From: Strigamia acuminata
Taxonomy: Eukaryota > Arthropoda > Chilopoda > Geophilomorpha > Linotaeniidae
DNA: 64,000 nt
Assembly (NCBI GenBank): GCA_949358305.1
Contig: OX442320.1
Span: 3,054,259 to 3,118,258 of the forward strand
Reading direction: 5' to 3'
The position numbers and the translations under genes are program-made. This document shows, piece by piece, positions 21,232-64,000 of this stretch (the first letter of the stretch is position 1; every line of letters starts with the position of its first letter). The notes under the pieces are model-generated. The model searched no databases and was not told where the DNA came from. It worked only from the letters and a program-made list of their open reading frames with translations.

Positions 21232-21246
21232 ATAACTTCAAAAACA

Positions 21247-33039: not shown

Positions 33040-35119
33040 TTATGGTATATGATCGAACGGGACTTCAAACCGCAGCCGCAGTTCCACGCCGTGTTCTTCA
33101 GCCATTCGCTGCATCGCTCCAGCGTCAAAATGTCGCCTTCTCATCTCGTTAATTCGCAAACTCACACACAACTCCTTCAAAGAATCGATTTTTATCAGAT
33201 CTTCAATCCCCGATGGCCCCAACAAGTCGCAGTCAAAAACTCTCAAACATTCGAGTTTCTTCCTCATGACTGGACTGGGAAAAAATTTTGAACCCAGAAA
33301 TTTGGATAAGCTTAGGAAAGGACGCAACAAAAAAAGAGAATAATTGAGCGCGTCACGGACCAATCCAGATCCAGCACTCTTCTTGTTCATCACGTCGGCC
33401 AACTCGCGCGCCATTTTGTTACTCAAGCCGGAGCAATCATTAAGAGTGAGTTTCTTAAGGTAGGGACACATGTCCAACAACTGGAACAAATACCCGGAGC
33501 TAACCCAACGGTCATTGGTATCCCACAAGGAAAATTCCACCAAATTATCAAACGACAAATCCCGCAAACAATCTCGATCGAAAGAATCATTTTCCTTCAC
33601 CATTTCAAACGTATCAATTTCCTCCGCAATTCCCACGTCCGAGTCATCGTCCATGCCATCGTCCATGCCATCGTCCGTGCTGACGCACAACTCGCGCAAC
33701 TTCTTGAACTTGGACAAACTCTGCAGCATTTTAAAGGTGAAAACATACGCAGAGAGGTCGATTCGGTTAACTTCAGGACACGTGAGCGCGGCTATCTCCA
33801 ACTCCTTCTCAATGTCGTCGCGAGGGTGACCCAACGTCAATCTTGTCAGATTGTATCGCTGCGGTGGCGCGCCGATAGGCTGCAGCGCTTTGAGCCACCT
33901 GGAATGATGATGAGTGTCCAAGACTTCGATGTATTTCATCCTGTTCAATATCAAGCAGTAGCAGTCCATTGGAAGATCGTAGCTCAACCTGAACACTTTC
34001 AACGTTTTGCTCAGTGTGGAGCTTTCTGCGCACAGTTTGCGCACAAAATCTTCGGTGGTTCCCCAACAGTCCAGCTCAACGAGTGGCATCTGGCCGATGT
34101 ACGTCACCGCGTCGTCTTCAACTACACACCGAGTAAGATTTAGCGTTTGTAGATTGGGCAAAATCTGGCACATTTGTTTGCACGCAGTGGCTGTGAGTGT
34201 ACTTTCCAGGGGCGGCGAGAACGCTGTCAGGTTCTATGCAGATGTGCAATTTAGAACAATTAAAAGAAAACGAATGTTTTAAGGAATTTCGCACACAGTG
34301 GTGGGGCGTTAGTGCATGTTTTTCGAGAAATTTCAAGTACAAACTAGATTTTTTTTTAACGTGCGGAAATGCGTCAATTTTTAAGCCAATAAAGCAGTTT
34401 TTTGTATAAAACGTGCATTTTTTGTCTAAATCATGCATTTTGTCTAAATCATGCATTTATTGTTTAAATCATGCATTTTTTTGCATAAAACGTGCATTTT
34501 TTGTCTAAATCATGCATTTTTTGTCTAAATCATGCATTTTTTGTTAAAAAATTCATTTATTTTTACTTTTTTCAGATAATGCATTTTGCTAAGCTTGAAA
34601 ATGCACTTTTCTGGTAAAAAATGAAAGGAAAAAAAAGAAGCCATTTCTGAATAATTCAGTCTTTTTTCTAATTTACGATATTTCTTCTTTTTCCCTTTTT
34701 GTTTTACTTTCGGCCACTGTGTGTGCAGTTTAAGTCCTCCTTCGATACTCACCCTTAACTTGTGGCCACAAACTTCAAGCAAAAACTCAAAATCAAACCT
34801 TGCACTGGGAAAGAACATGTGAATCTCATTCTTCTTTCCAGAAACAAATGGAGCAATGTCCCAAGCCTCTGGCGCGCCAACACCGTAGTACCGCGATCAG
34901 GTTCAGTATTTCGTCACGAACAGCAAAAGCTAAATCGGACCGTGTGTTATTGATAATTACGAAATAAATCAATAAATCCGGGTTCCACTTACGTAGTTTA
35001 TCGAAATAAGCGATTAATTGCATCGCGTTTTTCATCTGAACGTCGTCCATTTTTTGGACGTTCCATTGAACTTAACACCTAAAAATAGCTTCTATAGCCA
35101 TACCCTGTAATGTTTGCAT
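33040..35119 (-). pseudogene. Decayed LRR-family gene (three exons, stop and frameshift)
   Basis: Exon 3 (33040-34233) is open for 397 codons and is the longest family copy of this exon. It has all the LRR blocks (DRWVSSGYLFQ, GLSNKMARELAD, CDLLGPSGIEDL). Exon 2 (34753-34929) is 177 bp against 185 in the intact paralog, with the frame shifted midway before the APEAWDIAPF block. Exon 1 (34993-35119) has an in-frame TAA where paralogs read RCLIQ or RFVQW. Intron signals (GTAAGT...TTTAG, GTGAGT...CATAG) survive. Two independent lesions make this a pseudogene, although the large third exon could still be translated if transcribed from another start. Confidence 0.7.
34400..34556. repeat. ATGCATTTTTTGTCTAAATC repeat array in intron 2
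   Basis: About seven imperfect copies of a 19-20 bp unit with core ATGCATTTTT, at the same intron position as the array at 37455-38111 and the looser repeats at 13921-14060. Confidence 0.8.
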
Positions 35120-39761: not shown

Positions 39762-42700
39762 ATGGCGATACGAAAGAGTGAATGGCAGCTGTTGTCATCT
39801 CAGTTATGCTTTGTTATGCTCGTTGTAGTGGTTTTCACTTGTGCGGGGAAGTTTTGGATATTTAGAGGTTACAGGTTATGCGTAGTGTATTGTGTATCTC
39901 TTGCGAACAAAACTAATATTTACTCTCTGGCAACTGTCGCAAACAGATTAGACGACAGAAATCTTGTTGATGTCTTCTCAAACATGGGACCGAACGAACA
40001 AATTAGAGCAGCCGAGGTGAGGATTGTTATTCCTTGAAAATTAAATCTATTTTTACACGAAAATGCATTTATTCGCTTGAATTTGGACTAATCCTCGATA
40101 ACTTAATGATTTTTTTTTATACTCAGATCGTTCTGGAATTCTTTTTTGATGATGTCAATAATTCGGAGGCCGACACCAACTTTGCAAACATTTCCGAAGC
40201 ATTTGTAATCAGACGTACATATTTAGGCATTTGGAAAGAGTAAAAAAAAAAGCCGATTAATCAAATTTGTACACTCTGTGGTGACCCAGTTGGATAAGTG
40301 TCCCCCCAGGGCGGATACTTGTCCTATGAGTCACTATGATTAAAGAGTCGTTCCCCCCCGAGTTGGCTCCACCTCCCCATGGCAGGTGTGTGCCCCGAGG
40401 GGGAGGAAGCGGCTGGTGGTCAGCCCCCATTGGTTGATCGCCGGCCCTTCACCCCACTGCATAAAAGGCTGTGTTTCCCGCCTAAAGTCAGAACTTACAC
40501 AAACGACACCAAGAACACAGCAACTACCTCACCGTCAGGCCAACTTCAACTACAAGTTAGGATTGATCGAGGATCGCTGAGTAAAGTGCAAACTGTAACT
40601 CTCACGAAGTCACTTGCGAGCTATTCCTGCGAAAGCACGAGAATAGCCCTTGTGAAATCACCCAGAATAATCGCCCAGACGATTATTCGCCGAAGTAAGT
40701 GTCCGAGTGCTTTGTAGGGAACCCCAAAGTTCCTAGACGAGGCCTCTGCGACGCTAAACAAACCCTAGACAACAGGCACGGATAGAAGACTCGAAAGAGC
40801 ATTCCACCGCGTCCGTGAAGACGAATCCGTGACGAATTAACGACAACTCGAGACGCCGCCTTTGTTCCGCCGACCACGCGGAATCGACGACGCCATCTTG
40901 AGAAATCCTTTGTTCGACGCTGACCACGTCGACTCTAGAATTATTACTGAGTGTATTTTAAAGGCATAAAGCCTGGTGAATAAATTACCTGTTTATTTAC
41001 ATACATTTGGTATTCATTTGGGTATTTACATAATTGATCACAGGTAAAGTATTACACGTTAGCGCTATTTAAACCTATACCAAGTAGGACGCGACACGTG
41101 GGGGCCTGTCCGGGATTTAGAAATAAATCTCAAATCTGAACTTGTGATCTCTCAATAAGATAACCCAAATCGTAGAATTACCGAAAGAAAATGTCAGACA
41201 AAGACGAGCAATCCACGTCTGAAACCGAGCAGAGAATGCCCGAGAAGGGAAAAAGGACCTCCGACTACCACCTGAGATCGGATGGTCCCGTCCCTGAAAT
41301 GTCCGCAAAGGCGAAAGCCCGAGCGAATAAAAGGAGAGCGAAGGCGCAGAAAGAGGAGCAAGCTGCATCGCTCGCGGCCCTAGACGGGCCAGAGCGAGAG
41401 CGGGTTCCCTTGAATATGCAACCCTTCGAGGATACCGATCCGGAAGCCATAGAAAATCGAGAAGAAATTCGCGACGTATCGCCAGGACGAGTATCGATAT
41501 TGATGACCGAGGAGACGAATGAAGCTCCGAAAAAAACGGTCACGGTCGGCACGAACCCATCGCCACCCACGGCTCAGACGTCCGTGGAGCAAACCCCACG
41601 AAAAAACGACGGCGGGACCCCGATAACCCCCCGAGTTACGGCGAGTCCTGCGGTTGTTTCCTTCGAGGTATCTCACCTAATTCGGTTGACACGGCAAGCT
41701 GCCCAACTGAAAGCGATGATAGACATTCCAGTAGGAACGTCAGTCTGGGAATCGATTACTCTACTCACTGACGCTATCTGCGCGGCACAAGCCCCGACGC
41801 CGGTCGCAAGACCAGCAGCGGAGACGCCCATGCCCCAGGTGACGCCCAGTGACACCGGAGGTTTCGCGCCAGACCCCAACCGAGCACTTCACGAATCCAG
41901 AGAGAAGGCCCGCGAAGAAGCCAGACAAGAAGCGACTAATCGCCAACGAAGACTGAGCGCAGAGCGGCGAGAACTCTGGAAGGAAGAGGAAGAAAGGGAG
42001 CAACGCGAGAGAAGAACCACCGAGAGAACAGAGAAACTGGTCCAAAAAATGAGGGAAGAACGAGAAGCTAAAATTCGAAAAGAATGGAACGCCACAGTAG
42101 AAGGGCGACATCGAGAAGCTCAAGAATACGAGGACCAATTTCAAGCCCTCATAGCTCAAAGAAAAGCGGAAAAGCTACAAATGTTGCGAAAAGAAGCCAT
42201 TTTACAACATCAAAAATGGGAAGAACAGCATCGCGAGAGGCTGAGAGAAGAGGAAGTCAGAAAAGAAAAAGAACAGTTTCTGAAAGAGAAAGAAGAATGG
42301 GAACGAGTCAGATGGACCGAAGAGTACAAAGCGAAGAAACAAGCTATAATAGATGAGCAAAAAAGATGGGAAGCCGAAAACTGGGAGAAGGAGACAGAAA
42401 AGTTCCAGAAAGAGTACGAACAAGACGTCTCGGACAGGAAGAAAAATGAAGAAAACCTGAAACGGAAATCAGAACCCCCCAGCGGCTCTGATACCGACAC
42501 AGGAGAAGGTACAACGAAGCCGGCAAAAACGGCGAAAAGAGGGAAATCTCAAAAGAGAGACGAGTCGGTCCCAAAAACAAAGGACCGTCACCCCTCAAAA
42601 AGATCCGAGACGGGAGCAGCCATCGACGCGTTACTCGAAAAGAAAAACGCAAATAAAAATCGGGAACGCCCCGAAAGCGAGGAAAACAGATGGCATTCTT

Positions 42701-45700
42701 TTTACGAGAACAACGACGGAGAGGAGCCGCCGCCATCCGGAGGCTCGAAACAGAAGAAGGCTGGCGGAGAGACCCCACCGAGAGGGCCGAGGTTTCACCA
42801 CCAAGGAGATCCCTCCGAGCCCTCCGATTCGTCGGACGACGACCATCCGAGTCGACCGTCTACAGGGAGGAGTCAAGAAGGCAGCGATGGGCACCGGTCG
42901 AACCGGCCGAATGCTTCAGACCGCTCCTCCCGGAGCTCCAACCCTCGTTCGGAGGAAGGGAACTTTCAGGACTCATCTGGCCGACATTACACGATGTCTG
43001 AGCTAGGCCGAGCCCTGCTGAACTCTTTCAGAAGAGAAGGAATCGATCTAGGCCATCCAGGCGACGAACATAATCGCGCTGGAGAGAGGGTTAAACGCAA
43101 ATATGGCGTACGAAACGAACCAAGCGGCGAAGCCACGGGTAACATCCGTTGGCAACACTACATACAAACACGATTCGACGGTTCGTGGAAGGCCGGAGAC
43201 CGCTTCCTAGACGAAGTAATGCGTATCAAGAAAGCGACAAAAGCCACCGTCGCCGACATGCTAACCCACGGTCTAGTGGAACTAACCACGGGGTCAGCTC
43301 GAGAATGGTATCAGGGACTGAAAAACCCAACCTGGGACGATTTTCTCGTCCGTTTCGATCTCCGATACGGCGAGACTCCAGACGAGATCAGTAACAAATT
43401 ACGTGGTCTACGACAAGCCCCAGGAGAAACATTAGCCGACTACGACGCCCGAGCGAAACTCCTGTTTGCAAGAGCGCCGTACGAAATAAACCCCGCTGGT
43501 TTTACGATGATCTTTTACGGAGGATTATCGGCCCACTCGCAAAGAATTCTGCTAGACATGCGTGCACCCCGCACTGGCGATTACCAAGATGTCAGTAACT
43601 ATCTTCTAACAAACACGTTAGAAATAGAACAGCGGTATTACGCCACTCTGCCCCCGGAAGAAGCTGACGCGCACGAGAAGCGGTTGCAGACGAGCGCCGA
43701 ACGCCACAAGACCTCAGAAAAATTAATGAGGCCAAGTGAATATTTGAGCGGCATAATGAGTCTCACCGAAGCATCCTTCGGACGAATGCTGACGCCTAAA
43801 GCAGGCAGTATTCTTCCAGCCAACCCGATAGCTGCCCCAAAGAAAGCACCGGCAGCAACGGCGATGCAGGTGACCTCGACGGACTCCACCCAGATGGAGA
43901 AAGTCGAAGAGACAACACCTCTCGCCACGGCTAAAGAAGAGGAGCCAGCATCAAGCGACGAGGAAGCCCTAAATGAGCACCTCGAAAACTTGTCGACGGG
44001 ATGCGACGATCAAGGTCCCTATTTGCACCATGCACACCGGGCCTTAGCAATCGCACAATTCAGAGCACACGTGCAGGCAACAAAAGCGAGAGGGGCATTG
44101 GGAGGAAAAAGACGATTTCCGACGCCCTTCGTCCCGAAAAAACCGGGATTCACTCCCACAGGGGACAAAAGTAACATCAAATGTTACAGCTGCGGAGAAT
44201 ACGGTCACTACTCCGACAAATGCGAAAAAACCGTCAAAGAAAAAGGCATCATGCAAACCTTGATGAAAATGATGATGGAGTTAAATACTAATCTAGCAAA
44301 AAACTCCCAAGCGCAGGCGTCGCCGAAATAAATTCAGCTTCGTCTGCGCCAGCCGCGGAAATTAAAAAGAAGAAATATCACACTGGACCCGCAGGTCATG
44401 CCTTGGCAGAGGCACAGATCAAAGACCGCATACAGATCGTTCCGAAGAAGGAGGAAAAAGTGACGTTAACGAGTATGCAAGTGAGAACGAAACCGGAGGT
44501 CGACATGGATTGGACGGACCTTCCGTTCAATCTGGAGGTTGAGCCCCAGACATTACGCGTATTTCACTGCAATGTCACGAAAGCACATTGCGAAACTCTG
44601 TGTATGCTGCCAGTGGAGATAGAAAACCAAAAATTGTTCGGTCTACTGGATTCAGGAGCGGATCGTTCATTCATATCCGAAGATATAGTAAAAGACTTGG
44701 ATATTGGAAAGAAGGTGGCACAAGTGAACGCGAACGTAGAATTGCTCACCGCCAACGGCTACGTCAAGCCGAAGGGCGTAGTTCGCATCATGATCGACTG
44801 GACGGGGGGGAACCTGTCCCACCCCTTCATAGTCTTGCCATCCCACGACAAAGTATTCCTCCTAGGGATGGACATCATGGCGAAACTGAAAATTCAGCCA
44901 AACCCGATAACCCGTTCATGGAACTGGATAAGTCCCGAGGGAGAACGGTCAGTCCCCGTAGTTCCCCAAAAATTACTGGACGAAGCCAAGGACAAAGAGG
45001 AATACGGAAGAGGATTGCGAAAATTCGTCCAAGATTACGATTTCGCAGCCTTCACTCTGGAATTACAGAGGAGTAACGTCGTGGACACCCTGGTCGAGGA
45101 GGCAGCACTGCGTGTTAACGAGGCATCGCTACTAAGGCGAGTGCTTCGAAAGCATGAAAGAATTCTGACCAAGACACCTGGTCGAACGACGGAAGCAACA
45201 CACGAAATAGTCTTAACCACAGACAAGCCGATTCGAGTGCCTTACAAGGGGATGAACCCCCAGAAAAGAGACATCGTGACGCAAATGTGCCAAGACATGC
45301 TCGACAAGGGCATAGTAACGCAAGCCCTGGGCGAATACGCCATGCGGATCGTCCTGGTGATGCGTCCAGGCTCGGAACCTCGACTATGCATTGATTATCG
45401 CCCCCTGAACGCGATAACGGTTATAGACCCGATTCAGATGCCGTCTATAGACTCGATCCTCCGGGAACTGAGCCCGTTCAAGTGGGTAACCACGATGGAT
45501 CTGTCAAAGGGGTATTGGCAAGTGGAGCTAAAACCCGAAGACAAACTAAAAACGGCTTTCTACTCCCCGATAGGAAGATTAATGTTCAACGTGATGCCGT
45601 TCGGGCTTGTAAACGCCCCGAGCACGTTCCAGAAATTGATCGAAAGCGTGCTGGGAGATATGCTTCACGACTTCGTGTGGGCATATCTCGACGACATAAT

Positions 45701-48700
45701 AATAACGTCGGACACATTCGAAGAGCATATAGACCACATCGACAGAGTGGTCTCTCGCCTAGCCAAGGCGGGACTCCACATCCATCCAGGGAAGAGCAAG
45801 TTTTGCAGAAAAGAGCTTGCCTTCCTAGGATATCGAATAGGAGTCGAGGGAATCGCGATTGACCCCGAAAAGGTCAAAGCAATAAACGGATTCCCCGCCC
45901 CCGAAGATATAAAAGGTGTCCAAAGATTCATGGGCATGGTCAATTTCTTCGGCCGACTACTCTCTGGTCTGGCTGAGGTGGCCGCGCCTATAACGGATCT
46001 CTTACGAACGGATAAAGAGTTTGAGTGGACGGTCCAGTGCGAGGCCGCATTTAGCACTATCAAGCAAATGCTGGCTGACGTCGAAAAGATGCCATTGCCG
46101 GACCTAAACCGACCGTTCGTGTTGCACACCGACGCGAGTAAAATCGGACTGGGTGCAGCCCTTCTGCAGACCCACGTGTACAACGGAATCTCGCAAGAAG
46201 TACCCTGTATGTTTATAAGCAGAAAAATACAGGGCGCGGAGAAAAATTATACGGCAACGGAACTAGAATGCCTAGCCGTAATTTGGGCAGTTCGGAAATT
46301 TCGCGACTATCTGGAGTACACGAACTTCGAGGTTCAAACAGATCACCAGGCACTAAGCTGGTTGATGAAGCTCAAGGAACCCTCCGGCCGACTCGCACGA
46401 TGGCAACTGGAGTTAATGGCGTGCGATATAACAATTACGTACCGCCCCGGGAAGTACAATCATGTGGCCGACGCCCTCTCGAGAGCCCCAGCCTCTGACC
46501 CCCAGGGACCAGACGACGACGGCGAGGACGACACCCACCTCTTGTACTGCCCGACTCCACGGAGAATATGGCGTTTGCGAAAGGCGAACGAGCTACCAGT
46601 GATGGAGCCTGAAGATAGAACGTTTTGTGGTTTTTGGACTCGAACATACCAGCCAGCTGGGACAAACAATTCAACATCCGAAATTCAATCTCCGCCCCCC
46701 GGAGAAACCCACAAAACACTACTACGCGCCTTCACAGCAAAAATTGAAGAAAAAACACAATACGCTCCACCCACGAGACGTGAGTTCGTCGAACACCAGG
46801 CAGCAGACACAAAATGTCAAATTATAACGCAATATTTGCTGAACGGCGAATTTCCGGAAGGGATGGCAAACCCACACCGCCGGAAACAGTTCGTCAAAGA
46901 AGCAACAAGCTACCTCATAGATGATGAACTCCTGGTAAAATACCACCCGACGTTTCAAGATGACCTCAGCGGAGCGGGAAACTCGGTTAAAGTGGTCGTG
47001 CCGGCATCGCTGCACACCCGACTGTTGTGGCTGATGCACGGACACCCGCTCGCCAGCCATTCTGGCGTGGCGAGGACCCTTTATCGAGTAAAACAACTTT
47101 TCTTCTGGCCGGGCGCGCGGCAAAAGATAACGAAATTTATCCGACACTGCCCCCGGTGCCAAGCGTGCAGACCGCGAGATAAAGTGGCCAGAAACGCCAT
47201 GTCTCTCGGACCCTACGCACCGTTTGACTGCCTAAGCATAGACTTGATGGGCCCCAAGCCCACAACGGGAAACAAGAACATGTATATTCTCGTAATTATG
47301 GATGTGGCCACCCGATGGCCGGAGCTGTACGCCCTCGCGAAGCCCTCGGCTGAAAACATAGTCGAGTGCCTTTACGACGTGGCAATGCGATTTGGGTTTC
47401 CCAGAAAACTCATTTCGGATAACGGCCCCCAATTCCGATCAAGAATATATAAGGACTTCTGTAGAAAATTTAAAATGGATGCATCAAACACCTCCACGTA
47501 TAATCCTCAGACAAACCCAGTCGAGAGATTAAATAAAGACATAAAGTATGCGCTGACAGTATTCACCGATATTCACAATCGATGGGACGAATACCGGCGA
47601 GAAATCGCTTTCAGCATTCGCTCAACCGTGTCAAGAACACGCGAATTCTCACCGGCGTACCTCAACTTCGCCCGCGAATTAAGGATGCCATGGGACCCAC
47701 GCGTTGCCGAAGCTGTTAACGTATTAGACCCATCGAGCCCACATGAGTACGTGTGCCGGTTGGAACAGACTATATCCGACACATACCAGCATATGATGGC
47801 GCATATTTTCAACATGAGAGAGAGAATCGCAGATAAAGAAGGCGATCTCGCTTTCGCGAACTTTAAAGTGAATGATCTAGTGTGGAAGGAGGCACACACG
47901 TTGTCCAATGCAGCGAGGGGCATCGCCGCCGGTTTAGCCGACAAGAGGGACGGTCCCTATGTAATTGTGGCCGAACACGGCGGCAACGCATACCAACTGC
48001 GCCGCTTAGAGGACAACAAAAATTTTCAGTCGATACATGGCCGAGATTTAAGGCCATATCTGCCAGAGTTTCCCCAAGAAATCTGGCTGGAAGGTCAGAC
48101 ACACAGCGGCCAAGGGGGCACCGTGGTCGACACGTTCCAAAAAACAAATGAAGCTGAAAATATAACGAAGGACGAGGACGAATTCTTCGACGCCGAATCC
48201 CCAGCCGACGAGGCTCCAACTCAGCCGGAGCAAGCAATTTCGGAGAGGGAGGAAGCAGAAGAATGTACTTCTGAAATGGAAAATAAAAAAATTAATAATG
48301 AGAAAAATGCCAACACATCGGAGATGAACGAGCAAGTAGAGTCACGATCTACGAGCACGTCGAAAATCAACCTTCGACCACGACGAAGCGATAATCCGTT
48401 CATTCGGGACGGCAAAGTCGTGGGGAAGAACTAAAAATAAAAGAAAATGTGATAACATGGAGCGGAGGCCTTGTAAAATAAAAAGACTTACTTACGAGAG
48501 CTGCTGCACATGTTGAAACGCGAAAATTTGGCTAAGTCCAAACTTCGCAACGAATTGTCGCAGTCACCACTAACAGACGAGAAGTTATGACGTATCGGGC
48601 GACCACGTGACAATGAAACCACGCGGTCGACCCCGTAGCGTCATTGCCAGCACGGCGGATCTCGCAAAATACGAGACGCGTTCGAGACCCACAATTCTCA

Positions 48701-51700
48701 GCGTCGATAGGCCCAGTTTCCGACTGTTTTTAACACGACGAGACGTGTTTTTTGCTTCTCCCCAAAGAGAAAACAAAGACCTCTCAAACAAAAACTTCTC
48801 TTTCCTAAATTGAAATGGCCGATCGACGCAACCCACGATTAGAGCCGAGCGCATCGTCGAGAGACGAGAGCGACGGCCTAATCGTAAATGCAGAAGAAGA
48901 TGAGAATTGGGACGAACAACCGCCGTTGCAGGTAAATTAGTGTGATTTCCCCAGAGAAATCACATAATTCTTTGAATCTGTTGCATCCAACCCAGATTGG
49001 AGCGTGACTTGTGACTGATATATTTCTTTCTGTTTTATTGTTGATTTAAGGCTGGCTAAAAACCCGAGAGTGGACCCAGATTCACCTCGGAGTCAAGGCC
49101 GCCAAAAAACTAGAACAAAGGAAGTGTTCGCGGAATGGCGTCGTGGCAAACCAAAACCAAAACTAAAGGTTTTCTTTCTTTTAAATTTAAACATCGTAAT
49201 AAATTAAAATACGATTAGAGTTAAAATAAAAAAGTTTAACGTAAGAAATTAAAATTTAACGATCGGTTTTGCCTGCGACCCCTTCCAAAAAAGCGGATCA
49301 CCTGAGTTCAAAAGTAGTGTTGGATCAGCGCTACGACGGCGGAGATCATCGCAGAACTGCGAAACAAGAAAATAAGACCGACGGCCGCAACAAAAGAAAG
49401 GAGTTGCTGCCACCGTCGATCTTGAGCATATTTCTGATCCCCATCGTTAACTGGGATTTATTATATTAATCTTGTGATCTAAAATTATTCAGGTCGACCC
49501 GCTAGAATCGTGGGACGCCCTGCCTCCGACGGCGTCAACCGCCAACAACATCTTTCGCGGAGCCCTGCCGATTTACCTGCGGCAGGCCTATCCTGCAGAG
49601 ACCAGCGCCTGGAAAATCCGATTGATGTATTCCAGGACCCTCGAGGAAAAATTCGAGCGATCAAAAACGCTGGTCGAGTGCATGACGAAGGAGATGAGGG
49701 AGCGAGTGGGGCCGCGGATCCCACCCGATGCGGATCCGCCGAGCCCCGTTTACTCCGGGTACCTGGAAGAGGCTTACCCAGGCACGGTGGCCGAGCTGCA
49801 CACCTCCCATAGGTGGAGCGAGGCCCCGACCTTGGCAGCCCGCCAGAGAATAGTGGACGACGAGATCAAACGCTTAAAGCGCACCGAGACTCACGGAGTA
49901 ACCCGAGTTCTCGAGAGAAACGGTTTCTCCCCCGAAGAAATCCGTAGATGGCTTCGCGACATCGAAGAAGATCATCTGACACCCAGATGGATACCGCCGG
50001 CGAATTTTACGGCCACGCAGTCTGAAATGTGGCAGTTATACCACGCTGGTATCCTGGGAAGTCGCCGCCATCACAGAAGATCGAAGCGTCCGGCGGAGTC
50101 CGCCCCACGCGGACCCGCACGAAGAAGACAGGCCGTCTCCCCAACAGAGGCCGGCCCGTCAACGAGTCGCGACTACCGCAGCCGCTCGAGCAGCTCCAGT
50201 TCCCGAACTCGAGTTGTCGTGCGCTCGGAGTGTCGCCGAGTAGTAACGCTCGAGCCTGCCTCGCCAGACGACGCGCGGGCTGAGCGAACGGTCGAATCTT
50301 CCGCCCACTGGGCTGCGAGGACCGAGACACACCAAGATCGAGGAAAGAAAAGATCCTCGTTGTTTATGGCGATTACCACACAGTCGTCAGATCAATCCTC
50401 GTCGCGACGAACCGTCTCAACACACCAGAGACCGGATTCCCCGACGGACGTCCCCCAGAGGACGGTCCAACGAAGATCCGTCGCAGCCAACACCCGGAGG
50501 AATCGGAAGCGTAAAGTACGACAGAAGATGCGTGCGCAGTCTCTGATCGCGAAAGGATTGGAGAAAGAGCGAGAGATGGCCGCCGCAAAAAGGTCCGAAC
50601 CCCGAAGTCTCGGATCCGCGGCTGGGCCGTCCAGGCTCCAGGCAGAGATTGATTTGGGAGAATTGACGGAAGAACAAATATCCCAAGAAGAGTCGGACAA
50701 GGATGGACCGGTCACGAAGCAAGATCTGGCCATGGCATTGAAGAACGCCTTCCGAGGATACGCGGCCAACCGGCCGTCGGGCTCAACACCGGCTGTGCCC
50801 ACCGCGCTTGTGCCCCCACAGGTGCAATCGCGATGGCCGCCACTCCTCGAGGGTACAAACCCAGCAGTGACCACGTGGACCCCTCCCCGGATGATTCCGG
50901 TGGGAGATCCAACTCCCAAACGGGTCAGATACGACGACCTACCGGGGTTGAGCCGTCCACCGTCACCCCCAACGCCGCGAGCGTATCGGCCCTATCATAA
51001 CGCCGAGTGGTATGCACAGCGAGAGATGGACGCCCGATGCCGGCGTGAAGCGGCCTATCCCCCACTCAGCGAGCTGCAGGAATATCTGGCCGAATACGAG
51101 AACCCCGCGATTGCCGAGTTGGCCATACGACAGGCCGACGCCGCCCAAACTCACCACATCAATTGGGCGATCAAACAGATGCGGACGCTGTCACAACAAT
51201 TCAGTGACAATCCGGACCGCGCTCACCCCTGCCATCGGAGCAGTTTGAATTTGGCTGTGACGAACGTACTGGCCCAGCTGCTATCCCTGGGCGTCTTCTT
51301 GGACAGTCGGCAAGCTATGGCAGCCTGGACAATCGTCGACCGTGAGGGAGTTCACCTTCCTCGGGCGTTGTACCAGGTATGGGCCGGATGGACTCCTGAG
51401 CCCGCCTCGCTGCGCTTCGACCTGGCCAGAAATACGGAAAACCCAGGCCTACAGTTTTCGAAGATGCGTTCGTTGGCATTCCGCTACCGGAACCCCGGTG
51501 TCCATCCTTCCTTGTTACGAACGATTCGGGAGGTTCCGGAGATACCAGGAACGGCAGCGAGCCTCCCACAGGCCATCGAGACCGCCCCCCCAGAGGCGGC
51601 GGTCCAACCATACATACCGACCCCAAAGCCGGTATTCCCGAAGGAGAAGCGGCGCGCGAATCGACCCATATTGATTCCGAAGCGTTCCAAGCGAGGACCC

Positions 51701-53515
51701 CGAGCTCCTCCGCTGCCCTCTCCTTCACCCCCAGCGGCAGAGCTGGCCGCTCTCTCTGCAGAGCCGGCTACGCCACCGTTGGAGAGCCCAATGGAGATTC
51801 CGCTTCCACCATCGCCTCCGCCGCCCCCAGCAGCGCAGCTTTATTTGAGGCTGGGAGTGGAATACCCCTTCCTTCAGATGTCGGAGTTCACGCGACAACG
51901 CATCGTTGACTCCGATGATCACGGCGAATCGATCCTCAAATGGCTAAACAGAGAAGCCCGATCCACCATGGACGTCGTCTTCCATCGCCGTATCCTACGG
52001 GCCCACAGGAAACCCGGGTCGAGCGCCGAGTCACGAAGGATCCGGCTCGTTCCAGACCGATTCCCGGCCTCTACCCGGATTTGGATCCATGAGCGTACGG
52101 GACTGATCGGCGAACCCGTCGGTGGTCACCCACAATATTTCATCAATGAGCGGCAGAATCCTGCGGATCTAACAACCTCTCTGCCCCCAGATTTACCACC
52201 GCCGCCACCGGCAGTGCCACCCGTGATCCTCCGCCCATGCAGAGGAGTGCTGCCGGCTCTTCGCAGAGGAGAGCGATGAGAAAATTGAGATCGCTCCGAT
52301 CCGAGATCGAAGCTGGAGGAGGGACGTGTGGTGACCCAGTTGGATAAGTGTCCCCCCAGGGCGGATACTTGTCCTATGAGTCACTATGATTAAAGAGTCG
52401 TTCCCCCCCGAGTTGGCTCCACCTCCCCATGGCAGGTGTGTGCCCCGAGGGGGAGGAAGCGGCTGGTGGTCAGCCCCCATTGGTTGATCGCCGGCCCTTC
52501 ACCCCACTGCATAAAAGGCTGTGTTTCCCGCCTAAAGTCAGAACTTACACAAACGACACCAAGAACACAGCAACTACCTCACCGTCAGGCCAACTTCAAC
52601 TACAAGTTAGGATTGATCGAGGATCGCTGAGTAAAGTGCAAACTGTAACTCTCACGAAGTCACTTGCGAGCTATTCCTGCGAAAGCACGAGAATAGCCCT
52701 TGTGAAATCACCCAGAATAATCGCCCAGACGATTATTCGCCGAAGTAAGTGTCCGAGTGCTTTGTAGGGAACCCCAAAGTTCCTAGACGAGGCCTCTGCG
52801 ACGCTAAACAAACCCTAGACAACAGGCACGGATAGAAGACTCGAAAGAGCATTCCACCGCGTCCGTGAAGACGAATCCGTGACGAATTAACGACAACTCG
52901 AGACGCCGCCTTTGTTCCGCCGACCACGCGGAATCGACGACGCCATCTTGAGAAATCCTTTGTTCGACGCTGACCACGTCGACTCTAGAATTATTACTGA
53001 GTGTATTTTAAAGGCATAAAGCCTGGTGAATAAATTACCTGTTTATTTACATACATTTGGTATTCATTTGGGTATTTACATAATTGATCACAGGTAAAGT
53101 ATTACACGTTAGCGCTATTTAAACCTATACCAAGTAGGACGCGACAACTCTACATGAGTTTTCTCTTTACCAGGAATTTGCAGGCAATGAATGAAACTAC
53201 TTTGTTGAGGTTGAAAAAAGTGCTGACGCAAACGAAAGAATTGGCATCCGACGAAGTGAGTGTTTGACCGCAAAAACTTTGACTTCTCTGCGCGTATTTG
53301 TCACGTGGAAACGAATTTTGCAGGGATGGAAGATCGCAATGAAGAGTATGCAGTATTTACTGAACGACGACCTTAGGGTCTACGATTATTTGCTGGACGA
53401 GCGCTTGGCCGAAATCAATGGCGACGTCAACGAGAAAGATGTGGACGTCACCGACTGGATGCCCAGTTCGCTCGCGCTGCCGACAGACCAACCGACGGCC
53501 ACAGATGTGAATTAA
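39762..53515 (+). CDS. Gene F1: small membrane protein, four exons (213 aa), retrotransposon in intron 2
   Basis: I do not recognise the family. Exons: 39762-40016, 40127-40239, 53174-53255 and 53324-53515, all with GT/AG ends and compatible phases (0, 2, 0). Exon 2 reads into a stop (TAA) immediately after its donor, so splicing is needed for the full protein. A single N-terminal hydrophobic segment (about residues 13-32) suggests a signal anchor. The rest is polar and charged, with the conserved KVLTQTKELAS helix in exon 3 and LLDERLAE in exon 4. Intron 2 has grown to 12.9 kb because element B inserted in it. Exons 3-4 match those of the neighbouring paralog F2 closely, which supports the model. 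Whether the transcript still crosses the element cannot be told. Confidence 0.6.
40277..41096 (+). repeat. 5' LTR of element B
   Basis: 820 bp, TGTGGTGACC...CGACA. TATA-like ATAAAAG at 40461-40467 and AATAAA at 40979-40984. Shares short blocks with the LTR of element A downstream of the TATA. Confidence 0.95.
40461..40467 (+). promoter_or_regulatory. TATA-like box in LTR of element B
   Basis: GCATAAAAGGC, about 185 bp into the LTR. The repeat copy is in the 3' LTR at 52511-52517. The conserved blocks ACCTCACC, GATTGATCGAGGA and CCCTAGACAACA follow it. Confidence 0.55.
41099..41116 (+). other. Primer binding site of element B, proline-tRNA-like
   Basis: TGGGGGCCTGTCCGGGAT, two bases (CG) after the LTR. 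It differs from the familiar tRNA-Pro primer site at two central positions. Confidence 0.72.
41191..44331 (+). CDS. Gag protein of element B (1046 aa)
   Basis: Same plan as the Gag of element A but longer. The basic, Ala/Glu-rich N terminus is followed by an unusually long charged coiled coil (about residues 235-425, dense in Glu, Lys and Arg), then a Ser/Glu/Arg-rich linker. A capsid region (about 650-830) starts at FDGSWKAGDRFLDEV and includes WYQGLKNPTWDDF and the PGETLADYDA block. One CCHC knuckle (CYSCGEYGHYSDKC) lies at about 990-1004. The ATG is the first after the primer site in this frame. The capsid block aligns well with element A (FDGSW, PGET, NEM/DMRAP), while the coiled coil has drifted. 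The heptamer for frameshifting lies 11 codons before the stop. Confidence 0.9.
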   Translation: MSDKDEQSTSETEQRMPEKGKRTSDYHLRSDGPVPEMSAKAKARANKRRAKAQKEEQAASLAALDGPERERVPLNMQPFEDTDPEAIENREEIRDVSPGRVSILMTEETNEAPKKTVTVGTNPSPPTAQTSVEQTPRKNDGGTPITPRVTASPAVVSFEVSHLIRLTRQAAQLKAMIDIPVGTSVWESITLLTDAICAAQAPTPVARPAAETPMPQVTPSDTGGFAPDPNRALHESREKAREEARQEATNRQRRLSAERRELWKEEEEREQRERRTTERTEKLVQKMREEREAKIRKEWNATVEGRHREAQEYEDQFQALIAQRKAEKLQMLRKEAILQHQKWEEQHRERLREEEVRKEKEQFLKEKEEWERVRWTEEYKAKKQAIIDEQKRWEAENWEKETEKFQKEYEQDVSDRKKNEENLKRKSEPPSGSDTDTGEGTTKPAKTAKRGKSQKRDESVPKTKDRHPSKRSETGAAIDALLEKKNANKNRERPESEENRWHSFYENNDGEEPPPSGGSKQKKAGGETPPRGPRFHHQGDPSEPSDSSDDDHPSRPSTGRSQEGSDGHRSNRPNASDRSSRSSNPRSEEGNFQDSSGRHYTMSELGRALLNSFRREGIDLGHPGDEHNRAGERVKRKYGVRNEPSGEATGNIRWQHYIQTRFDGSWKAGDRFLDEVMRIKKATKATVADMLTHGLVELTTGSAREWYQGLKNPTWDDFLVRFDLRYGETPDEISNKLRGLRQAPGETLADYDARAKLLFARAPYEINPAGFTMIFYGGLSAHSQRILLDMRAPRTGDYQDVSNYLLTNTLEIEQRYYATLPPEEADAHEKRLQTSAERHKTSEKLMRPSEYLSGIMSLTEASFGRMLTPKAGSILPANPIAAPKKAPAATAMQVTSTDSTQMEKVEETTPLATAKEEEPASSDEEALNEHLENLSTGCDDQGPYLHHAHRALAIAQFRAHVQATKARGALGGKRRFPTPFVPKKPGFTPTGDKSNIKCYSCGEYGHYSDKCEKTVKEKGIMQTLMKMMMELNTNLAKNSQAQASPK
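44298..44349 (+). promoter_or_regulatory. -1 ribosomal frameshift cassette, gag/pol of element B
   Basis: A-AAA-AAC at 44298-44304 in gag phase, 6-base spacer, 9-bp stem (GCGCAGGCG at 44311-44319 with CGTCTGCGC at 44341-44349, one G-U pair), 21-base loop carrying the gag stop. The architecture is the same as in element A although the stem bases differ, so pairing is conserved independently of sequence. Confidence 0.87.
44305..48434 (+). CDS. Pol polyprotein of element B (frameshift product, no usable ATG at its start)
   Basis: Open from before the heptamer through 48434 in the -1 frame, with no ATG before the protease, so it should be made only as Gag-Pol. Domains: protease with DSGA (near 44650); reverse transcriptase with TMDLSKGYW and YLDD (45684); RNase H from HTDAS (near 46131); integrase zinc-binding region with HPLASHSG; core with Asp in LSIDLMG, Asp in DNGPQF (47418) and Glu in VERLN; and GPY/F motif KRDGPYV. 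All key residues are present. The C-terminal end is acidic then ends NPFIRDGK, as in element A. Identity to A is high across RT, RNase H and integrase. Confidence 0.95.
48435..48814 (+). other. Spacer between pol and third gene of element B
   Basis: Contains a short open frame (about 48613-48813) ending one base before the third gene's ATG, with an AT-hook-like word PRGRPR near its start. It could be an upstream frame, a further small protein or chance. Element A has no counterpart. Confidence 0.4.
48815..52279 (+). CDS. Third gene of element B, spliced, unknown function (about 967 aa)
   Basis: Exon 1 (48815-48931) codes for 39 residues with the acidic ENWDE block shared with element A (GNWDE). 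The intron (48932-49492, GTAAAT...TTCAG, 561 bp) is phase 0, as in A. Exon 2 (49493-52279) is open for 928 codons and lacks an early ATG. Blocks shared with A, in order: WKIRL near residue 80; FSPEEIRRWL; a Ser/Arg-rich charged region; an alpha-helical block with AAWTIVDREG; proline-rich linkers; and a C-terminal block with RILRAHRKPGSSAES and IWIHERTG. No signal peptide or membrane span. The family is unknown to me. Conservation of both the protein blocks and the intron position in a diverged element argues for a real selected gene. An open stretch at about 49051-49165 could be an alternative exon but is out of phase with exon 1. Confidence 0.75.
52315..52326 (+). other. Polypurine tract of element B
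   Basis: GGAGGAGGGACG directly before the 3' LTR, same GGAGGGACG ending as in element A. Confidence 0.8.
52327..53146 (+). repeat. 3' LTR of element B
   Basis: 820 bp, no difference seen from 40277-41096. Followed by the duplicated ACTC and then the rest of F1 intron 2. Confidence 0.95.
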
Positions 53516-57093: not shown

Positions 57094-57612
57094 TCACTGG
57101 AAAACCATAAAGTCCGGCGGTCTCTTCTCACGCACAGGACGCGGATTTCGAGCAGGTGGCGGCGAGGCACTCGGGCCAGCAACTGCAGGCGGTGAAGGCG
57201 CGCGAACAGGCAAAGGCGGAGCATGGACCTGGGCAGCGGTTTGTGGTACAACGGTTGGAGCTGGAGCTGGAAGTTGAGCAGGTAAGTTGGGTGGATTGTT
57301 CGTATTCATCGGCGGAACTGTCAGTAGTGGATTCGGGAGCAAGGATAGAAGCAAACTTCCACGATTTTCCCCCTCAATATGAGGCAATTTTGCACCAACT
57401 AATCTCGGGCGCAACTGGTCCACGTGACGGCTCCAAACAACGTCCAAAGCGACCTCGATGTCGTACGTTGTAGAAGACGTTTTGCGGCGAACAACACCTG
57501 GAATCCATCGATTGGTGCCTCGATAGTCTCGAGCAAACACCAAATCGTCCACTTCAAAACGACGTTGCGTGTTGGTTTGGGGAGTTTCGGGCAATAATTT
57601 CGGGTTAAGAAG
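57094..57612 (-). pseudogene. C-terminal part of Mag-type Gag-Pol, cut off by the copia insertion
   Basis: Continues from the integrase core at 63452-64000: the GPY/F-like region (FARDYRGTNRWIPGVV), the TSSTTYDIEV block and WSRHVDQLRP match the first Mag element, then a long proline-rich tail to the stop at 57094. The frame itself is open; only the insertion separates it from the rest. Confidence 0.8.
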
Positions 57613-58035
57613 TGTTATGTATGGAGCCGGCCTGGACAGTCCGAAATAAAGCTGACAAGTCGTGTAAAAGGTGCGGATAATCCGCATCTGCGTCCGCCAT
57701 TGTTTTATTAACTAAAAGACAATGAGAAGTGATTGATTCGAGGCTAATTCGCCTCAAAGTCAATGTACATCAAACAATAGAACAAATCAGCATTGTAAAC
57801 TACTGATTTGTTCTTTACAAAACAAACTGAGAACCAAACTCAACAAATCGATAAACAAAGTGAATGAACAATCGATGAGTGTCAATTCTAGCAGACAACA
57901 TCCGCATCGAAACTAAAACAAAACATTAGCACGCATTGTCTCATAGGTATACATTAATTATATCACGCGCCTAAATTACGTACAAACAGCATCACGCAAT
58001 TCAAACATTAAATAGGTGAACACTAAATCCCAATA
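57613..58035 (-). repeat. 3' LTR of copia-type element
   Basis: 423 bp, identical by eye to 63024-63446. Element-strand ends TATTGGG...CATAACA. Boundary fixed by AGAAG duplication. Confidence 0.92.
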
Positions 58036-58049
58036 ATTCCCCCTTTGTT
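58036..58049 (-). other. Polypurine tract of copia-type element
   Basis: Minus-strand AACAAAGGGGGAAT abutting the 3' LTR. Confidence 0.8.
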
Positions 58050-58131: not shown

Positions 58132-61100
58132 CTACATTCGTACTCCTTCCAGCCAATCAAATCCACCTGTCCGCGATATTACATCTTTATATTTATCCGG
58201 TCTAACAGTACAGGTTTCGGTAAGGGGTTGAGGGGTGGTTCTGGTATTGAAATCAAAAAGTTTCCTTTCATATCTATATCCCTTCTCCATACACCATTGC
58301 ACAACTTGATTCCGAATTGTAAGTCGATCGTTTAACGGTGATATGTAGTAGATATAAACTTCACCGGCTCTATCCCCTGTCTTCATGACAGCTTGGACCC
58401 TTTTCCATTCCTTCATCTTTAATGGGAGTAACGTTTGTTGACTGGTTATTCTCCCTCTTTGTTCATTGTCCCAAGGTTCAATCAAGAACGTTTCAGGAAT
58501 TATTTCTCGTGTATCAGGGTCAGTTTTATGAATTTCTACCCTTTCCTGCACTGCACCTTCCCCAATTAGTTCGGGAATTGAAGCAATAGGTTCCTCAATT
58601 TGGGTTTCATCCAATAAAAATGTTTGTCCCCCTTTAGCAAAATCAATTTGATTAATGGAATCACATTCCATCCTTTCTGGTATCACGAGTTCCCTAATTG
58701 TTTCACGTTTCTCTATTCCACTCTCGGGTAATGAAAGTGTTTGTCCCCCTTTATCCAAAACAGGTTCATCACTAATTGTGTTCCAGAGATTTGGTTCCAT
58801 CCTATTCACGATTGGTTGGTCCAATTCAAACCAATACACACTTTCATCTATTCTTGCACGTTCCGACGCAACGACACTATTTTCTTTTGGATCCCATATT
58901 CTGTATCCACGCGCCGTCATGGCGTACCCCACTAGGGCACCCGACCATGTCTTCCCATTCGATTGTCTAACGTGCACCTGAGAGCCAATGCATTTTAAAT
59001 GTCTCAACGACAATTTCTTGTCATAGAACAAACAATAGGGGATTTTCCCATTTAAACCTGCATTCGGGAACCGATTACTTAGATAAACTGCAGTTACAGA
59101 CAGTTCAGCCCATAAATTAGGGGGAAAATTGTTTTCCAATTGCATCGATTTCACACTGTCAATTATCGTGAGATTCATCCCATCGGCTACCGAGTTCATT
59201 CCGGCTTGAATACAATTTACTTCAATATTCGATGCATCATCCCATTCGGATATAAATTCCTCACTATCCGTCTCGATGTATTTCACTTTAGTGGAGGTGA
59301 TGCATTCAACTTGTGTTTGCCAATGCTTAAATCTTGTAAACATCTCCCCCTTATTTTTCAAAATTTCTACCCAGGCAAATCTTGAGAAATCATCAACTAT
59401 TACAAGATGATAATTGGCCCCACCCAACGATGCGACCTGTTGTGGGCCATACACACCCACATGGATGAGCTCCAAAATCTCTTTAGTAAATACCTTAAGA
59501 ATGGGGGAGAAATTGTGTGTCCCTGTGCTCTTAACTTCAGAGCAAGTAATGCAATGTGGAAGATCTTTATTTTGGAGTTTGATTCCAAAAATATCTTCAG
59601 TGTCTTCCATTCTGGCAATTCCGTCAGCATTAAAATGCCCCAGGCGCGAATGCCAAATGTCCATTGTTTGGGCCTCGTCTTTGTTTTTCACTTTAATGCC
59701 CTTACTTCTCACCTTTTTCGCTTTCAAATTAAGTTCGGCGTCAGCATTCGTGTTGGCACTGACGTCCCTTACACCACCGAAAACGATCGTCTGATCTGGC
59801 AGAGGATGTCCACGGACCTTACCCACTTTAATCTGAGCGGCAATTTGCTCAATTCCAGTGTTATTTCCTCCATTGTTGTTATCTAATTTATTGATCCCAC
59901 CATTCGTATCAGATTTCCTAACAACATTGTTATCTTTAATAACTTTCCCATTTTTAATTCCTCTTGATTTCCTGCCCTTAATTTTCGTTGTTTTAACTGT
60001 ATTCGCATAATCTTGCGAATTATCACTTAAAGGCGCAGATGAAATTTTTGCAGACTTTACTGCATCACACGAATTGTTAGCATTCGCTAATTTAAATTTC
60101 AAAGGGGTCAGTAACGAATCTACATTGCTATTATCTTCTACAGATAATTCCACCGAATTGGCTGCAACACGCGGAAAGTCAGTTTCCGCTAATATAGCTT
60201 CATTGAAGTCAATATGGGCCATACAGCTTGGCTTTCGGTTCCCCTTTAAACTTCCACTCCAAACCCCGTCTGGATATTCAATTTCCTTGCTTTTACGTTG
60301 GTTCTCAACACCGTTTGGATAAAATGTTTCATTATTCTTACCCTGCACATTACTGCACATTACTGCCCTGTCAATTCTATGCATGCACATCCCGTAAATC
60401 AACACAATAGCAGTATTTATCGCTCGTGCCAAAATGTCTGGCTTGTGTGTTAGTGCGCTCTTAGAAATTAAATGTGTTAATAGCGATACATTTTCCTTAA
60501 AATCAGACTTTAAATCAGCCGTGTCAACCGCATGCTTTGTTGAAAAGGGTGCGGTTGCACTCACATTTGGAACCATGGTGCAACAATCAACCGTGAATTC
60601 ATTATTCCCATTCCGTTGTGCCACCAATAATGGTTTGCTGATTTTGTTTTTGTAGATAGCCAGTCTCCCATGTGCAATATTAGTGGTTAGGCCAATTTTA
60701 TTCAATTGTCCCAAAGAAATCAAATTTCTTCCACTTTTGGGCACAAACCAAACATTTCTCAACCAAAATTTGCATTTCCAATTTTTATTAAAGAAAATGA
60801 AATAGATATCCCCGATACCCTTGACTGTTAAATTATTAACCAATGTGTTTAATGGCCTAAAGTTATGTAACCACCTTTCACATGATGCCACATGGTTGGA
60901 GACCTGGCTATCACAATACCAAACCGAATTTATATCATTCACTGTTATTACAGAATTACTAAAGTTTTGATGATCACTAATATTCGCGTTATACGAATTT
61001 CCACCTCTGGAATTTTCCTGATTTTTCTGGCTTTGTTCACGGACCCCAGCCATCTGAAAAATAGTTTTAGTGTTCATTGTGTCGGGTAACAATCCTCCGA

Positions 61101-61455
61101 CTTGGGCATTAAATGCCTTGTTAGTGCCCAAATTATCTTGTCCAGGCGTTTCCAACGCCGCTCGATCCTTGTCGAACTGATCACAGGCTTCCAAAACTTT
61201 GTGTGCCATTGTTCCAATTCCGTAGGCACTATTGTAGACAATCCTTGTCTCGTACGTTTTATAACGTTGACCTTGGCGTCCCCGGCGCCTCTCTACGACA
61301 TGCCAATCATTCGCACACTTGAAATCTGTTCCTTGTTTAAATGTCTTCATTTTATAAGCTGGACTCTTGTCATTTGATGACATGGTGACGATGAATTGAG
61401 AAATCCCAAATAAATTCGCACTTGAATTCACCGTTATCACCTTACTTTGATGCAC
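58132..61455 (-). CDS. Copia-derived protein: degenerate protease/integrase with C-terminal MBD-like domain (1107 aa)
   Basis: Likely start is residue 25 (ATG at 61383 in a good ACC-ATG context), giving 1083 aa. Order: short basic N terminus without capsid or zinc knuckle; a copia-protease-like block at residue 181-190 where the usual Asp-Ser-Gly is Asp-Ser-Gln; GAG-pre-integrase block with WHSRLGH (about 600); integrase-like core (about 655-800) where the first catalytic Asp is Gly, the second Asp (about 729) remains, and the Glu is Asp (about 756); then the downstream copia domain that normally precedes RT. RT and RNase H are absent. A repeated KGGQT-containing segment follows, then (about 1010-1075) a stretch that aligns without gaps to the MBD fold: Trp, Gly, Ala-Gly, Tyr-Tyr, Ser-Pro and the late Phe-Asp-Phe are kept, while both arginine fingers and the Asp that contacts methyl-cytosine are replaced. 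The function is unknown. Intact length despite lost catalytic residues suggests a non-catalytic role. Confidence 0.8.
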   Translation of the reverse strand: MHQSKVITVNSSANLFGISQFIVTMSSNDKSPAYKMKTFKQGTDFKCANDWHVVERRRGRQGQRYKTYETRIVYNSAYGIGTMAHKVLEACDQFDKDRAALETPGQDNLGTNKAFNAQVGGLLPDTMNTKTIFQMAGVREQSQKNQENSRGGNSYNANISDHQNFSNSVITVNDINSVWYCDSQVSNHVASCERWLHNFRPLNTLVNNLTVKGIGDIYFIFFNKNWKCKFWLRNVWFVPKSGRNLISLGQLNKIGLTTNIAHGRLAIYKNKISKPLLVAQRNGNNEFTVDCCTMVPNVSATAPFSTKHAVDTADLKSDFKENVSLLTHLISKSALTHKPDILARAINTAIVLIYGMCMHRIDRAVMCSNVQGKNNETFYPNGVENQRKSKEIEYPDGVWSGSLKGNRKPSCMAHIDFNEAILAETDFPRVAANSVELSVEDNSNVDSLLTPLKFKLANANNSCDAVKSAKISSAPLSDNSQDYANTVKTTKIKGRKSRGIKNGKVIKDNNVVRKSDTNGGINKLDNNNGGNNTGIEQIAAQIKVGKVRGHPLPDQTIVFGGVRDVSANTNADAELNLKAKKVRSKGIKVKNKDEAQTMDIWHSRLGHFNADGIARMEDTEDIFGIKLQNKDLPHCITCSEVKSTGTHNFSPILKVFTKEILELIHVGVYGPQQVASLGGANYHLVIVDDFSRFAWVEILKNKGEMFTRFKHWQTQVECITSTKVKYIETDSEEFISEWDDASNIEVNCIQAGMNSVADGMNLTIIDSVKSMQLENNFPPNLWAELSVTAVYLSNRFPNAGLNGKIPYCLFYDKKLSLRHLKCIGSQVHVRQSNGKTWSGALVGYAMTARGYRIWDPKENSVVASERARIDESVYWFELDQPIVNRMEPNLWNTISDEPVLDKGGQTLSLPESGIEKRETIRELVIPERMECDSINQIDFAKGGQTFLLDETQIEEPIASIPELIGEGAVQERVEIHKTDPDTREIIPETFLIEPWDNEQRGRITSQQTLLPLKMKEWKRVQAVMKTGDRAGEVYIYYISPLNDRLTIRNQVVQWCMEKGYRYERKLFDFNTRTTPQPLTETCTVRPDKYKDVISRTGGFDWLEGVRM
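58225..58430 (-). other. MBD-like domain region within the copia-derived protein
   Basis: Encodes about residues 1010-1075. The match to the methyl-CpG-binding domain rests on Trp-Lys at the start, Lys-x-Gly-x-x-Ala-Gly, Tyr-Tyr-x-Ser-Pro in the second strand and Phe-Asp-Phe at the end, in register over about 39 residues. Normal methyl-CpG reading is doubtful because the two DNA-contact arginines are Met and Thr here. A fold-level match is inference until a profile search is run. Confidence 0.65.
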
Positions 61456-63008: not shown

Positions 63009-63021
63009 CCCTCTGCTACCA
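63009..63021 (-). other. Primer binding site, initiator-Met-tRNA-like
   Basis: Minus-strand TGGTAGCAGAGGG, two bases after the 5' LTR. The first 12 bases equal the complement of the 3' end of animal initiator Met tRNA, the usual copia primer. Confidence 0.8.
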
Positions 63022-63023
63022 CT

Positions 63024-63446
63024 TGTTATGTATGGAGCCGGCCTGGACAGTCCGAAATAAAGCTGACAAGTCGTGTAAAAGGTGCGGATAATCCGCATCT
63101 GCGTCCGCCATTGTTTTATTAACTAAAAGACAATGAGAAGTGATTGATTCGAGGCTAATTCGCCTCAAAGTCAATGTACATCAAACAATAGAACAAATCA
63201 GCATTGTAAACTACTGATTTGTTCTTTACAAAACAAACTGAGAACCAAACTCAACAAATCGATAAACAAAGTGAATGAACAATCGATGAGTGTCAATTCT
63301 AGCAGACAACATCCGCATCGAAACTAAAACAAAACATTAGCACGCATTGTCTCATAGGTATACATTAATTATATCACGCGCCTAAATTACGTACAAACAG
63401 CATCACGCAATTCAAACATTAAATAGGTGAACACTAAATCCCAATA
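63024..63446 (-). repeat. 5' LTR of copia-type element
   Basis: 423 bp, identical by eye to 57613-58035. Followed by AGAAG. Confidence 0.92.
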
Positions 63447-63451
63447 AGAAG

Positions 63452-64000
63452 GTGCAGTCTCGAACGCATTTCCCGATTGGTAAACGCTAACGCGGGCGAA
63501 ATCTTGGTTGTGGCATGCGGCGTGGAGCGATACGACGCCAAAAAATGCGATACTGCAGCCGACAATGAAAAATTACTGGCCAACAACTTATCTACCTGGT
63601 TCTTGAAGGTTTTAACGAAGCCTTCAACTGCACCATTCGTAGCGGGGTGGTACGGCGGCGAAAGTGTGTGCCGGATCCCGTTGATTGCCAAAAATGCTCG
63701 AAATTCTTGCGAAGTGAATTGCGGCCGGTTATCTGTGTGGAAATGGAGCGGCAACCCGTGGCACTCGAACCACGACTTCACGACAGCAATGGTAGCAGCA
63801 GCGGTGGTTGTCGACATGGCGCGCACTTCACACCATTTTGACTTTGCGTCGACAGCGAGCAGAAACATGGAATTGTGGAAAGGGCCGGCGAAGTCCAAGT
63901 GAACACGACCCCACACCTGATCTGGGACAGGCCACTTGATGGTGTTGGTTTTGGGCGGGTCGGGCAGGCTGCGCTGGCAAACATCACAACTCTTGATCGT
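63452..64000 (-). pseudogene. Integrase core of second Mag-type Gag-Pol (partial, runs off window)
   Basis: Starts beyond the right edge (visible CDVCQ zinc-binding end) and continues through HLDFAGPF with the first Asp, DNRPQFTS with the second Asp (the usual Gly is Arg) and VEGFVK with the Glu, to the copia insertion site at 63451/63452. Strongly similar to the integrase at 7746-12472. Interrupted, so the polyprotein cannot be completed. Confidence 0.85.

Follow-up and report, generated by a model that had tools for sequence, protein, structure and literature searches.

An MBD at the integrase end of a clade of copia elements, with an RT-less member nested in a gypsy integrase gene of Strigamia acuminata

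The window analysed here, a stretch of 64,000 nucleotides, contains a frame of 1107 codons, or 1126 when counted from stop to stop, that raises the question of what an MBD-like domain is doing on a copia-type protein that has no RT. In chromoviruses the chromodomain is a methyl-histone reader thought to steer integration, and chromodomain integrases are an example of retroelements able to read histone marks. The sequence-only reading of this locus had placed the MBD-like domain at the C-terminus and had proposed that it could be the copia counterpart of that chromodomain and that, with both arginine fingers and the contact Asp replaced, it may read something else. Our analysis confirmed the observations made in that reading and partly supported its interpretation. 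The frame lies at 58132..61455 on the minus strand, which had been left unstated; read on the plus strand, the same positions contain many stops.

The window element is a complete LTR element nested inside a gypsy integrase gene. Its 5' LTR (63024..63446, minus strand, 423 bp, ends fixed by the 5-bp duplication) and its 3' LTR (57613..58035, minus strand) match without difference, 424 of 424 columns being identical with one flanking base included, and the printed sequence has the TSD AGAAG on the left (57608..57612) and on the right (63447..63451). A primer-binding site, TGGTAGCAGAGG, presumably of the initiator-Met tRNA type, is found just inside the 5' LTR (63010..63021, minus strand), and this motif (GGTAGCAGAGG in L029) also adjoins the LTRs of the copies L029 to L034 and L037. 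The polypurine tract AAAGGGGGAA (58037..58046, minus strand) precedes the 3' LTR, and relatives of the element have similar tracts. The interrupted gypsy integrase frame, also on the minus strand, has its downstream half at 57094..57607 and its upstream half at 63452..64000, from where it continues beyond the window edge. Thus LTRs, primer-binding site, polypurine tract and 5-bp TSD are all as expected of a copia element, and the copia order of protease, integrase and RT lacks its last member. Since the relatives L033 and L034 have the full order, the window element is a non-autonomous derivative. It resembles LARD, TR-GAG and BARE2, non-autonomous LTR elements with intact LTRs, primer-binding site and polypurine tract that are copied without an RT of their own; those elements keep gag or nothing, whereas the window element keeps its protease/integrase/MBD frame. 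An Rfam scan of the whole window gave no match, and neither did an Rfam search for SL1, which detected no control.

Pfam recognised four domains on the minus strand within this frame: Pol_BBD, the protease region (60691..60921, residues 179-255), gag_pre-integrs with the integrase HHCC zinc region (59530..59712, residues 582-642), SH3_retrovirus at the end of the integrase (58831..59025, residues 811-875) and the MBD, PF01429 (58231..58413, residues 1015-1075). Comparison with L033 additionally placed an integrase core remnant at 59026..59529 (approximate limits, minus strand). The copia-like protease and integrase blocks described earlier were therefore found again, and the scan of the window protein detected no RT, no RNase H, both of which had been reported as absent, and no rve (integrase core). 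Chromodomains were detected neither in this protein, at E values up to 10, nor in the scanned relatives, at E values up to 0.01.

What had been called MBD-like is a true MBD, with a Pfam E value of 4.3e-7 and 29.9 bits against a curated cut-off of 21. As a single sequence it reached its nearest solved structure, MBD2, at an E value of only 0.076, and a profile made from 13 MBDs of the host genome, the window copy first, reached MBD2 at 1.9e-14; all 32 chains among the matches listed for this profile were MBD/TAM-domain proteins. The AlphaFold2 model of the window MBD (mean pLDDT 78.1, core blocks 87-95) placed 43 MBD or TAM rows ahead of the first unrelated row when compared with the PDB by Foldseek (best E 2.2e-4, seven rows with E <= 0.001), and the model predicted for the MBD of L013 likewise has the MBD fold. 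When the MBD of L013 was used by itself as the query of a protein search, no match was obtained. The Pfam, profile and fold matches, together with the search among other proteins described below, rule out a chance MBD-like register. The predicted fold is common to host MBD1, MBD2, MBD4 and MeCP2 (6d1t, 2ky8, 3vyq, 3c2i), whereas the copia domain belongs to the polyprotein of a retroelement. The window copy has the profile match and the predicted fold of an MBD without its arginine fingers and Asp, because the contact residues R, D, R are M, Y, T in this copy, in agreement with the earlier observation.

The domain is not a single oddity: the host genome, proteins from elsewhere and an RT tree all show that it characterises an entire clade of copias. 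A search of the 237.5-Mb host genome with the MBD model gave at least 150 matches, all above the cut-off (the best 150 of 1092 candidates were scored, the window copy being outside the scored rows). By our own count 119 of them sit in open frames of at least 1500 codons, and one, at C3:20309085, belongs to an exon in a gene of the host, which from its motifs we take to be BAZ2-like. The matches examined, which do not include the broken L006 and L002, belong to copia elements in which the MBD follows the integrase SH3 and precedes the RT: L033 and L034 have the order gag, zinc knuckle, protease region, integrase, SH3, MBD, RT, and L001, L003 and L005 the order SH3, MBD, RT. Additionally, in a protein search with L013, many of the best 120 of 665 matches have PF01429 amid their copia domains, and the matches include copia proteins of Araneus ventricosus and Argiope bruennichi. 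A local profile search of 128 proteins detected the MBD at E < 1e-7 in 44, including one Stegodyphus and one Parasteatoda protein, and weakly in another 5. SH3 precedes and RT follows the MBD in 42 of the 44; in the other two SH3 was not found and RT follows. The C-terminal placement is therefore not by design, as the RT that follows the MBD in every RT-bearing relative examined is simply missing here.

Furthermore, in an RT tree of 131 rows (quick method, midpoint root) all 51 MBD rows fell in one group of 65 (SH-aLRT 97), together with 5 weak rows and 9 without detected MBD, and none of the remaining 66 rows has an MBD; a small careful tree gave a support of 98/97. The simplest history suggested by these sequences would be a single gain of the MBD, followed by erosion or loss in some lines. 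Both the position of the MBD and the unity of the clade are well supported in our sample. The literature searched, seen in part and with subscription papers and preprints outside its scope, offered no description of a retroelement that carries an MBD.

The contact residues are conserved in most of the sampled clade. R, D, R are present in 11 of 11 other MBD copies sampled from the host genome and in 36 of the 44 proteins from elsewhere, many of these proteins being near-copies from one spider. A Tyr that we take to correspond to MBD1 Tyr34 is also kept in 34 of those proteins; in the host it is kept in 4 of the 11 sampled copies and is V or I in the high-copy families. Thus the contacts of host MBD proteins are also found in most RT-bearing copias sampled and are absent from the window copy, so that the idea of a domain that reads something else is limited to the RT-less lineage and a minority of the others.

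The proposed likeness to chromodomains held for position, because the MBD is found at the integrase end as the reader is in chromoviruses; chromatin reading itself is what we infer from this likeness. Chromoviruses are described in the relevant passages of PMC5348765 as Ty3/gypsy elements with an integrase chromodomain, and the same passages report that the CoDi-I elements, copias found in the diatom Phaeodactylum, have an integrase chromodomain. CoDi-I elements are like MBD copias in being of copia type with a chromatin-reader domain at the integrase end, and unlike them in having a chromodomain instead of an MBD and diatom instead of animal hosts. Chromoviruses also have their reader at the integrase C-terminus and differ from MBD copias in the gypsy order, with RT before integrase; MBD copias carry a methyl-DNA-reader fold.

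The explanation that we favour, with moderate confidence, is that of an MBD-copia clade in which a reader at the integrase end tethers integration to CpG-dense DNA, the window element being an RT-less hitchhiker. A deep Copia clade, from animals where hosts are named, would have gained a single MBD, placed between the SH3 of the integrase and the RT, and would for the most part have retained it. At the integrase C-terminus this domain would tether the integration complex to DNA that is dense in CpG and probably methylated, and the targets would often be coding parts of other retrotransposons, in parallel with the chromodomains of chromoviruses. The RT-less subfamily of the window would be copied in trans by the proteins of autonomous relatives; its own protein, with catalytic residues and putative methyl-CpG contacts lost, would be partly constrained and perhaps a helper.

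The hitchhiker part of this explanation is well supported by the RT-less family itself. A search of the host genome with the LTR gave 26 matches, ten at about 100% (five pairs), four at 81-92% and twelve weak ones at 69-72%. The five pairs correspond to five insertions, in the window and on C69, C111, C8 and C3, those on C8 and C3 being shortened. Their LTRs are more than 99% alike, their interiors 97-99.9% alike, and their 5-bp TSDs all differ (AGAAG, CGACG, ACTTG, AAATT and ATTTT). This family has moved recently without an RT of its own. In a search with the integrase-to-MBD region (best 79 of 2785 candidates), the family was followed by a single old, broken copy, and the matches after that were 47% identical. 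In that old copy, L155, whose pieces are 80-94% identical, the MBD runs into the LTR and leaves no room for an RT, which suggests that the RT was lost before L155 split off.

A first alternative concerns the RT-less protein, which could be a mere decaying relic with a meaningless open frame. The protease active-site motif is DSQV in the window protein and DTGA in the intact relative L033; in the integrase all of H-H-C-C is kept in the zinc region, and in the core the first catalytic D is G, the second D is kept and E is D, again compared with L033. These losses, together with those of the MBD contact residues, fit a relic. Changes on the window branch are also near even over codon positions (133/117/123), unlike the third-position excess on the branches of L033 (73/59/112) and L034 (94/72/137), indicating relaxed constraint. 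We nevertheless consider decay alone rather doubtful, because the 1126-codon frame is open in three copies (the window copy, L029 and L030) and 996 codons of it are kept in a fourth, L032. In a simulation with 150 unconstrained changes, a figure that is a guess, only 1 in 1000 frames remained open from the 730-codon frame of L033. The protein alignment also resumes in frame past each gap, a weak argument since whole-codon gaps arise by construction. Furthermore, dN/dS was 0.75 against the younger copy L032 and 0.53, over 663 codons, against the old copy L155, itself dead with three stops. Partial constraint is the simplest reading of these data, and the RT-less protein might perhaps serve as a structural or nucleic-acid-binding helper.

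The tethering part of the favoured explanation bears on insertion sites, for which the main MBD family, 7 kb long, was used (20 hand-picked copies, 18 usable, 16 with a clear 5-bp TSD). The comparison sets were 20 random loci and 19 sites of two gypsy families; the gypsy sites came from 10 copies with both flanks, 2 of them dropped because the LTR end was not found, and 20 copies with one flank, 9 of them dropped (5 without LTR end, 4 with a flank below 200 bp). Flanks of the MBD family contained 9.0 CpG per 100 bp at 52% GC, compared with 4.6 at 39% GC for gypsy (p = 0.0003) and 4.45 at 39% GC for random loci (p = 0.00014). For CpG o/e, no significant difference separated these flanks from random loci (p 0.27) or from the gypsy sites taken together (p 0.12); since GC rises together with CpG while CpG o/e stays the same, a plain preference for GC or coding DNA fits too, and GC-rich coding DNA may be the true correlate of insertion. 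The insertion point itself showed no maximum of CpG density, with 5.9 CpG per 100 bp within 10 bp. CpG-poor exceptions were L037 (3.5 per 100 bp; main family, outside the 18) and L034 (5.0), and the RT-less copies L030 (5.2) and L032 (3.0). Empty sites formed a fully open 560-bp frame in 11/18 cases for the MBD family and 5/20 for random loci (p 0.047). Retroelement protein domains lay beside the site in 8/18, 3/20 random and 3/19 gypsy cases, one of the 8 having only an MBD that was taken as a copia's; this weak excess gave p 0.025 with sub-threshold matches and p 0.087 above the Pfam cut-off (7/18), and the rates are not even-handed because the Pfam scans covered 20 of the 30 long open frames in MBD flanks (13 sites), 10 of 21 at random loci and 10 of 15 in gypsy flanks. 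Stronger clustering than gypsy at the end of C1 was rejected (20/37 vs 11/28 by our own counts, p 0.32).

The MBD could instead give the integrase a grip on DNA that is unspecific or favours GC, in which case methylation would be irrelevant. The joint climb of GC and CpG with unchanged CpG o/e would agree with such a grip, as would the V or I at the Tyr34 position in the host's high-copy families and the CpG of the window, which is not depleted (o/e 1.21) and so carries no mark of germline CpG methylation. We find it unlikely in view of the proteins from elsewhere, where R, D, R, mostly together with Tyr34, are retained. Methyl-CpG reading with targeting is most likely, as the putative role that best fits the data. 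A more specific form, in which a widespread animal copia clade reads host methylation through its integrase MBD and inserts into methylated, CpG-dense bodies of other retrotransposons with the RT-less offshoot riding along, is a tentative possibility. If it were true, the host's silencing mark would be the element's address. A conserved methyl-DNA-reader fold at the chromodomain spot makes methylation-guided site choice by retroelements directly testable.

The MBD could also work after integration or in particles, binding the element's own methylated copies or competing with host MBD repressors. The kept contact residues would suit this anti-silencing role, and so would a host with DNMT1-like genes at about four places (introns or decay between the pieces) besides one DNMT2-like gene, names that we assigned from motifs; these points fit targeting equally. 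Together with the BAZ2-like exon, the DNMT1-like genes indicate an animal host. We regard anti-silencing as quite improbable because in the elements examined the MBD is at the integrase C-terminus, the usual place of targeting modules, and because the insertion profile is unlike that of gypsy. Lastly, a domesticated host gene, which a preserved frame with lost catalytic residues could have indicated, was rejected as scarcely credible, since the frame sits between identical LTRs with primer-binding site, polypurine tract and TSD and has sister insertions, five in all at separate places.

MBD-copia proteins are filed in public databases under names like 'Retrovirus-related Pol polyprotein from transposon TNT 1-94', and one public-database cluster named after Araneus has 217 member sequences.

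Residues 255-582 of the window ORF, which separate protease from integrase, span roughly double the length of the corresponding stretch in two RT-bearing copia relatives, L033 and L034, and most of the differences between the window copy and its sister copy L032 appear, as an uncounted impression from the alignment, to fall within it. In the same clade of MBD-bearing copias, five proteins from outside the host genome (P0014, P0016, P0018, P0020 and P0039) carry an MBD at an unchanged position that is strongly altered: the Asp and the counterpart of MBD1 Tyr34 are changed, as is the second Arg in most of them, and a shift of ligand is possible for these domains. About four genes of the host genome, presumed to be DNMT1-like from their motifs, were located at C1:30368704, C3:32744317, C1:11840161 and C3:35919211; CpG depletion is absent in the window.

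The window also holds two large gypsy-like elements on the forward strand (18335-28583 and 41191-52279), in each of which gag and pol occupy frames of their own and are followed by another long frame. These third frames have 832 and 885 codons, and the 832-codon one had no Pfam match in a scan that covered the first element. At 14105-15268, 33040-34173 and 36146-37231 lie three single frames that resemble one another, each some 360-390 codons long, and probably represent a host gene family; one of the two scanned gave a weak LRR match. In the host genome, the gypsy family comprising L109 and L110-L127 inserts at ATAT, with duplication of these 4 bp at all eight usable sites.
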